A stretch of 64,000 nt of DNA, from the NCBI GenBank assembly GCA_022769665.1, contig JALEIR010000036.1:20952-84951 (forward strand), in the 5' to 3' direction. Under the pieces are notes generated by a model that searched no databases, was not told where the DNA came from, and was given only the letters and a program-made list of their open reading frames with translations. A program made the position numbers and the translations under genes. Positions 52,378 through 57,504 of the stretch are shown here, in pieces. Source of the stretch: Lachnospiraceae bacterium (GTDB lineage: Bacteria > Bacillota > Clostridia > Lachnospirales > Lachnospiraceae). The stretch's first letter is position 1. Each line of letters begins with the position of its first letter.

Positions 52378-53664
52378 ATGATAGTCAAAAAGTTTGTACC
52401 CTGTATTTATTTATATCATGAACATGCGGTAAAAAATCTCGCCGATACTTCTGTTGTGGAAACAGACCCTCTTCGTCTTGTTAAACTTTATAATGAAAAC
52501 AATGCAGATGAGTTGATCGTATTCGATATGTCCGAAGATGATGCGGAGCATGAAGCAGCACTAGATATTTTGAAAGGAATCTGCAGTCTGGCTGAAATGG
52601 ATGTTATAGGCGCCGGAAATGTAAAGCGGATGGAGGATATAAAGAAGCTTCTTTATGCCGGCTGTCGACGTGCTGTCCTTGATTATGAGAAAGAAGAAAA
52701 TATCAATATTACAGAGGAAGTATCCTTAAAATTCGGTGCTGACAAAATTCTTGTCTCATACAATGATCCAAAAGTGATTTCAGACCATAAAGAACTGATT
52801 GATAAATATGTTTCTTCTCTTATTTTGATGAACCCTCATCAAATCAGAGAAACAGAAGAGATAACCGATTTACCGTTTTATGTTCAGATTAGTCAGATTG
52901 CATTGAATAAACTGATGGAAATTCTATCCTATAATCAGGTATGCGGTATAACAGGGAATACAATCAATGATAATTATAAGGAGATTCTTTCCCTAAAGAA
53001 TCTCTGCAAGGAAAACGGTATTCAGGTTGAAACCTTTGAAGCGGCATACAAATGGAGTGATTTTAAGCTGAACAATGACGGCATGGTGCCGGTAGTGGTA
53101 CAGGATTACAGAACACTGGAAGTCTTGATGGTAGCTTACATGAACGAAGAAGCATACAATTATACTATTTCAACCGGTAAAATGACCTATTTCAGCAGAA
53201 GCCGAAAACAGCTTTGGCTGAAAGGAGAGACAAGCGGACATTATCAATATGTAAAAAGTCTCACAGCAGACTGTGACATGGATACCATTCTTGCAAAGGT
53301 TTCGCAGGTCGGCGCTGCTTGTCATACAGGTGCAAGAAGCTGTTTCTTCAATGAGATAACAAAAAAGGATTATGAGGAAATTGATAACCCGCTTCAGGTA
53401 TTTGAAGAAGTGCTGGATGTTATTAAAGACAGAAAAGTTCATCCCAAAGAAGGCTCTTATACAAACTATCTCTTTGACAAGGGAATTGATAAAATCCTGA
53501 AAAAGCTGGGAGAAGAGGCAACAGAAATTGTAATTGCTGCCAAAAATCCGAATTCAAACGAAGTAAAATATGAAATCAGCGATTTCCTTTATCATATGAT
53601 GGTACTTATGGTAGAAAAGGACGTAAGTTGGGAAGAAATTACTACAGAATTAGCAAATCGATAA
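52378..53664 (+). CDS. hisIE: HisF-like pseudo-domain fused to HisI and HisE
   Basis: Protein of 428 residues in three parts. Residues ~227-325 are HisI (phosphoribosyl-AMP cyclohydrolase): [48 protein letters not shown]. Residues ~335-428 are HisE (phosphoribosyl-ATP pyrophosphatase): [25 protein letters not shown]. The N-terminal ~220 residues align in pattern with HisF/HisA barrels ([37 protein letters not shown]). The catalytic Asp near the start is replaced (PCIYLYHEH for PCLDVxxG) and the glycine-rich GGGI loop is altered. It is probably a non-catalytic barrel. This matters because no hisA, hisF, hisH or hisC is nearby. Confidence 0.9.
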
Positions 53665-53850: not shown

Positions 53851-56800
53851 ATGAAGCACACTGACAGAGAATCAGAAGAGCAATATTTAAAAGAAACTGA
53901 ACAGGTAATTGAGAGTAATCTGGAGAATTACGGAAGAGAAGTTACCCGCATGCAATCCGAAATAGATGAAATGCTGGAACATTATCATGACAATGATGTA
54001 GAGCTCTGGACAATTCTGAACAACACCATTACGCTGAATGAACACATGAAGCGCAATCTGGAACGCAATGAGAAGGCAAAACACAAACCTTACTTTGGCA
54101 GAATTATTTTTCATGATGAGACTTTAGACAAAGAGGAATCTTTATACATCGGAAAAGGAGGTATTTCCAAAGACAATACTCATTGGATGGTGGTCGATTG
54201 GCGTGCCCCTGTTGCAAATGCATACTACGAGAACGGTCTTGGCAAATGTAGCTATGTAGCCCCCGGGGGGAAAGAACTGCCTATTGAACTACAGTTAAAA
54301 AGAACATTTGAAATTGAAGACGGAAATCTTTTGGATTACTTCGATACAGAGGTTATTGCAAATGATGAACTTCTGATGAAATATCTTTCCAGGAATAAAG
54401 AAGCTGTATTAGGCGAGATTGTTGCAACAATTCAAAAAGAGCAAAATGAAATCATCCGTAAATCGCCTTATCATAACATTATTGTCCAGGGTGTAGCCGG
54501 CTCCGGAAAAACCACAGTTGCCATGCACCGGATTTCCTTTATCCTCTATAATTACAAAGACCGTTTTAAACCGGAAGATTTTTATATTGTCGGAAGCAAC
54601 CGTATTTTGCTGAACTATATAACCGGAGTCCTTCCTGATTTGGATGTATACGGTGTCAGACAAATGACCATGGAACAGCTCTTTATCAGGCTTCTTTACG
54701 AAGATTGGGATGACAAAAAATACAGCGTCTGCTCTGCAGCCGGAACCAAAAATATTATAAAGGGAACAGAACAATGGTATTTTGATCTGGAAAAATTTAT
54801 ACGTGAACTGGAACGAAACACTATCCGCAAGGAATCTGTTTTTTTGAATCCAAGACAATTTGTGGAAGGAGTCCAAAACGGAAAATCCGGGATTTTCGAC
54901 AAAAGAGAAGATGACAAAAAAGCAGGAGTGTCTCCAAAACTTATTCAGCTTATAGACAGTTCTGCAGTAGAACGCTATATTACGCAGAACCCTTATATAT
55001 CCATACAGAGCAAAATTAACATGCTTAATGAGCGCCTGCTGGTAAAAGTGAAAGATGAGTTTATCGGAAAAGGCGTCACCTATACAGAGGAGGAGCGCAA
55101 GGCTATTCTGAAGGCTTACAGAGGCTATTACGGCAACACACAATGGAAGAAATCAATCTATGAGTTGTACACGGAATTTTTGTTATTACAGCGCAGCAAA
55201 GGGATTGATGTGGACATTCCAACCACCTCATTTGATGTATACGACTTAGCGGCTCTGGCTCTGCTTTATAAACTGGTTAAGGAGACCGAAGTAATCAGCG
55301 AGGCTCACCATATTGTCATCGACGAAGCCCAGGATTTCGGCATGATGGCATATCTCGTTTTATACACTTGTATTAAAGATTGTACCTATACTGTCATGGG
55401 AGATGTTTCTCAAAACATTCATTTCGGCTACGGTTTAAGTGACTGGGAGGCGTTGCGCAGACTATTACTAACAAATTCAATGGATTCCTTCGGTCTGTTG
55501 CGAAAAAGCTACAGAAACACGGTAGAAATATCCAATTTCGCAACAAATATTTTAAGACATGGAAGCTTTTCCATTTATCCCGCAGAGCCTATTATCCGTC
55601 ATGGAAAAGAAGTGGAAGTAGAGGAGCAGAAAGGAGTTTCGGACAATCATTTTGTACAACGAGCTGCCGAGATTTTAAGCAACTGGCAAAAAGAGGGTTA
55701 CGATACCATAGCTGTTATTTGCAGAGATAAAAAGTCCGCGCAGATTACTGCAACACATCTTTCACAGTATATTGACATAATGGAAAGTGATTTGGATAAA
55801 GTAAATTTCGGAAACGGAATTCTTGTCCTTCCAGTTGAGTATACAAAAGGTCTGGAATTTGATGCAGTTCTTATCTGGAATCCAACGAATGAGGATTATC
55901 CTACAGATGACGGTAATGCAAAGCTTCTTTATGTTGCTGCAACCCGTGCTCTTCATGAACTTCATGTACTATATCGGGAAAATCTTACCGGGCTTATTGC
56001 CGACCCGGTGGCGGAAGAAAAAAACACTGTATTCATTGAAGAAAGAAAATCTGATCAAGTAGATTACGCGAAGAAACCGGATTATCAGCCTCTCGCTTCT
56101 CCAGTGAAACCTAGAGTAAAAATAACTTCAAAGGTGATTATTACTCAAAACCAACCATCTTCATCATTGCAAAACAGTTCCCGGAAACCCTCAACGGACG
56201 ATACGATAAAGCCGATATCTGCAAAAACAGCCGTATACAAGCCAACTGCTTCCAAAATATCCTTTGGTGATATGCCGGTCACAGAAAAGCTTCGTCCTTT
56301 AGGGCATGCCAAAATTAATCTTTCTGTCCGGTGGGTATCAAAACAGCCGGATGGCCTTTATCTTCAAAGTCAGTATGGCACCATGCGTATCAGCCCGGTA
56401 AACGGCAACATTATACGTATCACCTTTTCAAAGGGTACTAAGTTGATTGAAGGTACACACCCTCTGATTTCTGTTAATAAGGTTGAGAAGAACTGGAAAT
56501 ACCGTGACAACGGAAAAGCCATTGAGCTTACCACCGGAGAAGTATCTGTCAGAGTAGATAAGACATACGGCTCCATCGCTTTTCTTGATTCAAAAGGAAC
56601 GCTTCTTCTTGAAGAAAGGAAACAGGAAAGCCGAATTTTGGAAAGCGGACGTAATTTTCTATTCATGAATTGGCAAAAAGGAGAGCAGTTGTTTGCCATG
56701 GGGCCGGAGGGACAAGGGGCTTTGAAGCTTCGTGGCAGCGCATATTATATTTCAACGGAGGATGCACTTCCTTTTCTGATGTCGGATAAAGGCTATGGAA

Positions 56801-56964
56801 TTCTTCCGGCATCACAAGGAGATGTAATCTGTTGCGATGTCCCTGCTTATGGCTCCTATCTTTCTATGGAAAACCGGGAACAACAGCAACAGCAGGATTA
56901 CTATTTTATTGCGGGTAAACAACAGCAAAACATTATGAATGCATATGCATATCTTTGCAATTAA
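53851..56964 (+). CDS. HelD-like helicase with C-terminal GH31-N-like domain
   Basis: Protein of 1037 residues. Residues 1-~710 match HelD/UvrD-like superfamily I helicases that free stalled RNA polymerase. They have an N-terminal coiled coil (residues ~8-75, the secondary-channel arm in HelD), Walker A QGVAGSGKTTVAMHRISFIL (~213), IVIDEAQDFG (Walker B), MGDVSQNI, RKSYRNTVEIS, EYTKGLEFDAV and YVAATRALHELHVLY. A Pro/Ser/Thr-rich linker (~720-815) leads to ~815-1037. That part reads like the N-terminal beta-sandwich of family 31 glycosidases (FAMGPEGQGALKLRG, DALPFLMSDKGYGILPAS, DYYFIAG, IMNAYAYLCN) but has no catalytic barrel after it. HelD alone is ~770 residues. Strong RBS GGGAGGG. Confidence 0.85.
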   Translation: MKHTDRESEEQYLKETEQVIESNLENYGREVTRMQSEIDEMLEHYHDNDVELWTILNNTITLNEHMKRNLERNEKAKHKPYFGRIIFHDETLDKEESLYIGKGGISKDNTHWMVVDWRAPVANAYYENGLGKCSYVAPGGKELPIELQLKRTFEIEDGNLLDYFDTEVIANDELLMKYLSRNKEAVLGEIVATIQKEQNEIIRKSPYHNIIVQGVAGSGKTTVAMHRISFILYNYKDRFKPEDFYIVGSNRILLNYITGVLPDLDVYGVRQMTMEQLFIRLLYEDWDDKKYSVCSAAGTKNIIKGTEQWYFDLEKFIRELERNTIRKESVFLNPRQFVEGVQNGKSGIFDKREDDKKAGVSPKLIQLIDSSAVERYITQNPYISIQSKINMLNERLLVKVKDEFIGKGVTYTEEERKAILKAYRGYYGNTQWKKSIYELYTEFLLLQRSKGIDVDIPTTSFDVYDLAALALLYKLVKETEVISEAHHIVIDEAQDFGMMAYLVLYTCIKDCTYTVMGDVSQNIHFGYGLSDWEALRRLLLTNSMDSFGLLRKSYRNTVEISNFATNILRHGSFSIYPAEPIIRHGKEVEVEEQKGVSDNHFVQRAAEILSNWQKEGYDTIAVICRDKKSAQITATHLSQYIDIMESDLDKVNFGNGILVLPVEYTKGLEFDAVLIWNPTNEDYPTDDGNAKLLYVAATRALHELHVLYRENLTGLIADPVAEEKNTVFIEERKSDQVDYAKKPDYQPLASPVKPRVKITSKVIITQNQPSSSLQNSSRKPSTDDTIKPISAKTAVYKPTASKISFGDMPVTEKLRPLGHAKINLSVRWVSKQPDGLYLQSQYGTMRISPVNGNIIRITFSKGTKLIEGTHPLISVNKVEKNWKYRDNGKAIELTTGEVSVRVDKTYGSIAFLDSKGTLLLEERKQESRILESGRNFLFMNWQKGEQLFAMGPEGQGALKLRGSAYYISTEDALPFLMSDKGYGILPASQGDVICCDVPAYGSYLSMENREQQQQQDYYFIAGKQQQNIMNAYAYLCN

Positions 56965-56983: not shown

Positions 56984-57340
56984 TCAACGCGGTTCAATAT
57001 TCTCAAAGCGGACTATGGCAGAAGAAAACGAAGCTACCCATTCGTCAATCCTATTTTCATAATCAGCACTAATCATTTCAGCTATTTTTTCGGTGGTGAT
57101 TCCTGCCAAACTGATTTCGTTTACGTCCATGGCGTATAATAATACAACCAATATAACCGACAGCAAAAGTCTAAATCGAAATGAAGAGGGCATTTCCGAT
57201 GATTCCGGTCTTTGATGATTTTGAGCCGCTCGTCCATATAGTATTTGTTCTCTGTTGTACATGTCGTACCTGTTTTCGTTATATTTTGCACGGATTTGCT
57301 GTACCAGCTGTAATTTTTGCTCTGTCGTTACATCATTCAT
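56984..57340 (-). CDS. Small single-pass membrane protein, unknown
   Basis: Protein of 118 residues from ATG 57340. Residues 1-~50 are polar and helical (EQKLQLVQQIRAKYNENRYDMYNREQILYG). One membrane helix (~57-74, LLLSVILVVLLYAMDV) follows, then an extracytoplasmic helix ~85-118. No family or known function; the N-terminal pattern looks conserved among Lachnospiraceae but that is a memory-based impression. TTG 57349, three codons upstream, is an alternative start; both have weak ribosome sites. It is a monocistronic minus-strand gene convergent with helD. Confidence 0.65.
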   Translation of the reverse strand: MNDVTTEQKLQLVQQIRAKYNENRYDMYNREQILYGRAAQNHQRPESSEMPSSFRFRLLLSVILVVLLYAMDVNEISLAGITTEKIAEMISADYENRIDEWVASFSSAIVRFENIEPR

Positions 57341-57504
57341 ATCTGCCAACCGTATTCTAAAAGCTTATTATATGATAAGATATGTCCGTTTTAATGCAGG
57401 AAGAACCGGTTCTCAAATTTGCATTGCGAATTTTATTATGGTACAATGTGTTTGCTTAACTTCGGAGTTCCTAATTTTACAGGGAATAGAAAGGACCACA
57501 CAGA

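Follow-up and report, generated by a model that had tools for sequence, protein, structure and literature searches.

Why does a motor of the HelD type, a family known for RNA polymerase recycling, carry the N-terminal domain of a glycosidase? The question is raised by a gene of a Lachnospiraceae bacterium (assembly GCA_022769665.1) in a 64,000-nucleotide stretch of contig JALEIR010000036.1 (positions 20,952 to 84,951 of the forward strand), hereafter the window. The encoded protein consists of the motor, a basic linker and a beta-sandwich of the kind found at the N-terminus of glycoside hydrolase family 31 (GH31) enzymes, hereafter the tail (Table 1). A preliminary description of the sequence had proposed that a GH31 N-terminal domain lacking its catalytic barrel was captured by a HelD-type motor. 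The presence of both parts in one protein, without the barrel, is confirmed here, and the capture is supported by a fusion that is intact and kept across relatives.

Identity of the two parts

B. subtilis HelD is driven by ATP and inserts its arms into RNA polymerase. The sequence match of the fusion protein to this HelD (PDB 6WVK) covers two stretches, residues 63-277 and 466-711. Residues ~278-465, a possible counterpart of the clamp arm inserted in domain 1A, lie unaligned between them; a model of low confidence shows helices mixed with strands there. The superfamily 1 motor motifs of the HelD type, Walker A, DEAQD and UvrD-C, are present. The Walker A, DEAQD and WRAP patterns were each found in all 45 tailed HelD cores compared and in 26, 27 and 26, respectively, of the 27 tail-less ones. 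Near the N-terminus, an acidic turn is situated between two long predicted helices, and its D47 and E51 are invariant in the alignment of 70 close relatives. In the model, this turn is likely the tip of a secondary-channel arm; a loose acidic-tip pattern, unrestricted in position, occurs in 34/45 tailed and 21/27 tail-less cores. The turn was compared with D56/D57/E60 of B. subtilis HelD as given in an excerpt of PMC12802891, and a similar helix pair with an acidic turn forms the polymerase-entering arm of that protein in the available portions of PMC7749167 and PMC12802891. From the ATPase motifs and the predicted secondary-channel arm we infer that the motor retains HelD activity. In the window genome, the fusion gene is the sole strong match to the HelD_BACSU profile, all others scoring 42.8 bits or less.

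The GH31_N profile (PF13802) matches the tail alone at 27.9 bits, against a cut-off of 27, and is absent from the listed matches of the whole-protein scan; among 35 tails of this type it matches 16 at E 0.01 or better. A fold search with the predicted structure revealed a galactose-mutarotase-like beta-sandwich, as in GH31 N-domains. The preliminary description had called for fold and profile searches and held that a search without a match to this fold would overturn it. GH31 N-domains were matched, and both the HelD and GH31_N profiles match, the latter only with the tail taken alone. In fold and sequence, the tail resembles the N-terminal domain (DUF4968/PF13802) of GH31 alpha-xylosidases and a dextranase (7KMP, XacXyl31; 5JOU, BoGH31A; 6JR6, FjDex31A). 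In contrast to these enzymes, the fusion protein has neither the TIM barrel nor the C-terminal domains, and the tail is basic. The protein has no Pfam match to a GH31 barrel family, the carrier of the catalytic aspartates, and no such barrel adjoins the window gene.

Table 1. The fusion gene and its features, with window coordinates
Feature	Position	Strand	Basis
Whole fusion gene	53851..56964	+	single open frame from ATG to stop, 1037 amino acids plus stop
HelD-type motor, residues 1-720	53851..56010	+	NCBIfam NF041464 (HelD_BACSU), 1.2e-98 over the whole protein; 6WVK, 2.3e-71; UvrD domains
Acidic turn HYHDNDVE, residues 44-51	53980..54003	+	between long predicted helices 6-43 and 50-78
Walker A GVAGSGKTT, residues 214-222	54490..54516	+	sequence; invariant in alignment of 70 close relatives
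Walker B type motif IDEAQD, residues 490-495	55318..55335	+	sequence; pattern in 45/45 tailed cores
Basic linker, residues 721-804, likely disordered	56011..56262	+	rich in K, P, A and S; per-residue model confidence (pLDDT) <50 for 722-801
KPRVKI, residues 753-758	56107..56124	+	by eye like the basic linker motif of relatives; pattern unmatched
GH31 N-terminal (galactose-mutarotase-like) beta-sandwich, residues 805-1037	56263..56961	+	profile, sequence and fold matches
Domain start FGDMPVTEKLRPLGH, residues 805-819	56263..56307	+	tail-conserved residues, rare in related GH31 enzymes
Insert site, ~residues 931-934	56641..56652	+	32-34-residue insert in 15/15 related GH31 enzymes, 0/35 tails
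CCDVPAYG segment, residues 994-1001	56830..56853	+	tail-specific residues

Spread and integrity of the fusion

A protein search with residues 740-1037 gave 741 hits; the best 120 were examined. Each of these has PF13538, the UvrD-C motor domain, and all but two are 997-1179 amino acids long. Among named genomes, the best 80 of 339 relatives were scanned, a set ranked by match to the tailed query and thus not a fair sample. HelD and tail share one frame in all 80 of these loci, the tail being complete in 78 and cut by the contig end in two (L124, L127). Among the carriers are Acetatifactor muris DSM 23669, Eisenbergiella tayi DSM 26961 and E. porci; the fusion is also found in Parablautia intestinalis and in the complete genome of Lachnospiraceae CE91-St56. 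A second set of 49 loci, chosen by whole-protein match, comprises 36 fused loci, one whose tail is read in a different frame from HelD, and 12 tail-less ones, of which one (L011) is contig-cut. The survey of relatives suggested in the preliminary description thus reveals a tail conserved across many genomes. In the locus with the displaced tail (L049, refetched as L134; G209), the HelD frame has 750 codons and the tail lies in an overlapping, different frame.

In an order-wide sample, with at most seven candidates scored per genome, the tail type (at least 259 bits) was present in 11 of 392 genomes, all from the window's own family group, in frames of 1016-1092 amino acids. The next-best match, at 133 bits, is a 786-codon frame of GH31-enzyme size. 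Three short tail frames (G066, G108, G036) that might have been stand-alone tails all run to contig ends; given the limit of seven candidates per genome in the order-wide sample, a stand-alone copy may exist elsewhere.

Selection on both parts was estimated from the ratio of nonsynonymous to synonymous substitution rates (dN/dS) in 25 of 29 chosen pairs, several with dS above 1.5 and so near saturation. The ratio is 0.046-0.267 for the tail (23 of the 25 pairs computable) and 0.039-0.119 for the core (24 of 25). The pairs L004/L009 and L084/L101 gave identical values and are probably the same two genes measured twice; L014/L108 and L009/L101 apparently also represent genes met twice. No remnant of a GH31 barrel or C-terminal part was found around the window gene, and the same search at 149 other loci gave a single strong hit, in L096, ~5 kb from its helD. 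A split GH31 gene, which the preliminary description had named as possible grounds for rejection, is therefore not present beside the window gene. That the fusion is an assembly or frameshift error, or a decaying remnant of a GH31 gene, has next to no probability: the one relative with a displaced tail (L049) would fit it, but both parts share a frame in 80/80 and 36/49 loci, tail dN/dS is at most 0.27 and no barrel remnant adjoins the window gene, so that an artefact is ruled out.

One bacteriophage-filed record from human fecal samples, marked UNVERIFIED (L239; MT836747.1), contains a tailed HelD frame of 1083 codons. A phage origin of the fusion was rejected, since the record, the only match among the phage sequences, holds the tailed HelD gene as such and is more likely a bacterial contig.

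Origin of the tail

Of all GH31 proteins in the comparison, those closest to the tail are a subgroup of 15 enzymes of ~790-860 amino acids from the same genomes. The tail profile scores 94.5-139 bits on 14 of them and 73 bits on the fifteenth (L191), whereas the remaining GH31 proteins retrieved score 27.3 bits or less, or give no match. Since matching the tail was the criterion by which the subgroup was chosen, its scores are high partly by selection; the informative finding is the gap that separates it from the rest of the GH31 proteins. The window genome has its own copy (L180; G000:C74; 799 amino acids; 131.6 bits), a complete GH31 enzyme with the barrel and C-terminal domains that the fusion protein lacks. 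In a tree of the domain, 35 tails form one clade on a long stem (1.33) adjoining the close subgroup; L191 groups with distant enzymes. Core and tail distances correlate (r 0.92; 0 of 2000 permutations), which fits joint inheritance of both parts.

The HelD core tree comprised 72 rows (45 tailed, 27 tail-less) and was built by a quick search, with support from the Shimodaira-Hasegawa-like approximate likelihood-ratio test (SH-aLRT) only. It took 9 of the 80 named-genome loci; the partial L011 and L033 were left out, as were L130, L131, L132 and L134, which repeat L045, L046, L048 and L049. L049 was scored as tailed despite its other-frame tail, and L023 and L125 have identical cores. One change explains the distribution of the tail (SH-aLRT 96), and support for the tailed clade is 97.6 in a tree without long branches. 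The tail-less sister group of this clade comprises L045, L046, L048 and L135. In a tree comparison by the approximately unbiased test (p-AU), from which L140, L141 and L041 were additionally left out, two trees that place tail-less sisters inside the tailed clade, as loss instead of gain would imply, were not rejected (p-AU 0.169 and 0.237). No tail was found within the 1.4 to 3.7 kb searched downstream of tail-less helD genes. A single gain of the tail, in Lachnospiraceae, is likely.

Changes in the tail

Relative to the nearest GH31 enzymes, the tail has lost a 32-34-residue insert and three motifs. The insert is complete in 2 of 12 more distant GH31 proteins as well. The patterns LGQ.[ED]EG and [HY]Q.N each occur in 14/15 related enzymes, and T[PAV]DG.[KR], which sits within the lost insert, in 15/15; none of the three is found in any of the 35 tails. 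Other residues are conserved in the tails instead. At the domain start, F805 (97% of tails), P809 (91%), G818 (89%) and H819 (89%) are each present in no more than 7% of the related enzymes. K943, A964, S968, C995 and P998 are likewise absent or rare there: K943 is found in 89% of tails at a position occupied by E in 60% of the enzymes, and C995 and P998 are present in 94% and 83% of tails versus 0% of enzymes. Y1000 and G1001, which close the CCDVPAYG segment, are common to tails and enzymes.

The charge of the domain differs in direction between the two groups. Tails have a median isoelectric point (pI) of 9.06, above 8 in 34/35, compared with a median of 5.41 for the N-domains of the related enzymes, where 1/15 exceeds 8; the other GH31 N-domains do so in 2/12. 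The linkers are basic as well: in 116 related linkers of 65-174 residues the median pI is 9.84, and 109 are net positive. A short basic-hydrophobic motif (of the RKRISIVRN or GPKRIVVQ type; e.g., L072, L120, L030) is found in 42 of the 116, compared with a mean of 3.4 after shuffling; the linker of the window gene does not match the pattern. The linker is likely disordered.

Possible functions of the tail

The surface of RNA polymerase is largely acidic. The basic charge of tail and linker points to polymerase or nucleic acid as the target, and it is quite possible, if far from assured, that the tail is a basic docking module that helps the predicted recycling motor to hold stalled polymerase or its nucleic acids. 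A broader and somewhat more tentative proposal is that one event converted an acidic glycosidase N-domain into a basic module that grips RNA polymerase or nucleic acid, giving rise to a new, tail-armed class of HelD in gut Lachnospiraceae. In the docking mechanism, the linker of ~84 residues would start at the C-terminal 2A head, which in the portion of PMC7749167 available is thought to be the moving part of HelD, and the domain would reach polymerase surfaces or nucleic acid. The added contact would lengthen the stay of HelD on a stalled complex, or help to remove released DNA or RNA. Neither sugar binding nor catalysis by the tail would be expected.

Several points weigh against the docking proposal. 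The HelD_BACSU score of 331 bits is below the curated equivalog cut-off of 419, so the fusion protein is not filed as an equivalog of B. subtilis HelD. The full-length model is weak (mean pLDDT 70.4; predicted template-modelling score, pTM, 0.39), and because parts of the motor are of low confidence too, low pLDDT alone is no proof of linker disorder; domain placement from this model was dropped. The window's own tail, with pI 8.63 and net charge +3, is at the low end and only mildly basic, and the 35 tails are non-independent tests, since the charge difference reflects one ancestral change. Sister lineages retain tail-less HelD, and the basic activity therefore does not require the tail. A delta-like domain (HARE-HTH) was found in a single relative (G033, which lacks a HelD match) out of 61 with and without tails, and so says nothing for or against the tail as a substitute for the polymerase delta subunit. 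Finally, it is just as conceivable that the basic domain folds back onto the acidic core of HelD.

This last possibility leads to an unlikely alternative, that the tail is a cis-regulator in which the basic sandwich lies on the core and holds the motor off until displaced by polymerase. Acidic cores (net -19 in tailed HelD) facing basic tails and linkers would suit it, and the core-tail distance correlation fits contacting parts, but plain co-inheritance too. The weak model gives no confident placement of tail on core, and tail-less cores have nearly the same charge (net -17), so there is no matching change in the core.

Binding of a protein partner other than polymerase, such as a nucleoid, ribosome or repair protein that would direct HelD to particular sites, is similarly improbable. 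The tail-specific conserved residues and the recurrent short linker motif suit such binding, but no conserved neighbour emerged from the six window neighbours tested; the commonest, hisIE, accompanies helD in 19 of 129 loci, although a large share of these loci do not extend far enough to show it. A conserved his operon was rejected on this count, in which the window's own locus is included. Seventeen of the 19 have hisIE upstream on the same strand, it is convergent in L092 and L108, and one locus (L018) is tail-less.

The preliminary description had read the carbohydrate fold as a possible sugar-linked or surface-tethering signal, a reading that found no support. Glycans are the livelihood of gut Lachnospiraceae, and the fold is that of carbohydrate enzymes, which would suit a tail that has kept its affinity for a sugar or sugar nucleotide and adjusts polymerase recycling to the carbon available. 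Such a role is very doubtful: judged from sequence, the three motifs and the insert of the related enzymes are lost, the catalytic barrel is absent and the basic charge points elsewhere. The reading is further weakened by XacXyl31, an enzyme outside the closest subgroup, in which PA14 alone among the accessory domains is reported in the active site (PMC8245568, in part).

Neighbouring genes and further fusions

The gene directly upstream (52378-53664) encodes HisIE (PF01502, PF01503) preceded by an additional HisA/HisF-like region at the N-terminus, matched by PF00977 over residues 7-127, about half of the profile; it is a second, adjacent domain fusion. In another locus (L232:1357-3900, minus strand), a ketopantoate reductase C-terminal domain (PF08546) lies in frame ahead of a HelD-type motor, reflecting either a fusion or a missing stop. 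Beside the end of the window gene is a small convergent open reading frame of 121 codons with a hydrophobic stretch (56984-57349, minus strand). A promoter scan around the gene found 16 candidates, little above shuffled sequence (mean 11.5, standard deviation 4.6).

Relation to known systems and significance

The fusion protein shares with B. subtilis HelD (6WVK, 6ZCA), a Class I RNA polymerase recycling factor, the predicted secondary-channel arm with its acidic turn, the Walker A, DEAQD and UvrD-C motor motifs and the WRAP segment; it differs in ~320 additional C-terminal residues, the basic linker and GH31 N-domain. With delta, the partner of HelD in B. subtilis, the tail has no more in common than the notion of an auxiliary element assisting HelD on the polymerase: the domain is different, and the linker is basic here. 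The C-terminal region of delta is likened to a DNA-mimicking loop in the part of PMC7749165 available. HARE-HTH (PF05066) is absent from the Pfam matches of the fusion protein and has no match in the window's own genome.

In a survey of HelD classes, proteins of up to 939 amino acids are given in the legend of Figure 3, and the terms 'glycos', 'carbohydrate' and 'C-terminal extension' do not occur in its main text (PMC8655204, in part). No description of a HelD with a glycosidase domain was found among the literature matches listed (titles and starts of abstracts, 'held' being a common word). Judged by the literature searched, the fusion represents an architecture new to a known motor family.

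These findings provide a clear case of the recruitment of a metabolic-enzyme domain by a protein of a transcription-recycling family. The closest relative of the domain can be traced, it probably arose once in this setting, and its shift in charge can be measured. The delta-type domain, a helper of HelD in B. subtilis, is almost never found in the relatives searched. Tailed HelD and their tail-less sisters offer a ready comparison for the role of such extra parts, and for polymerase recycling in anaerobic gut bacteria.
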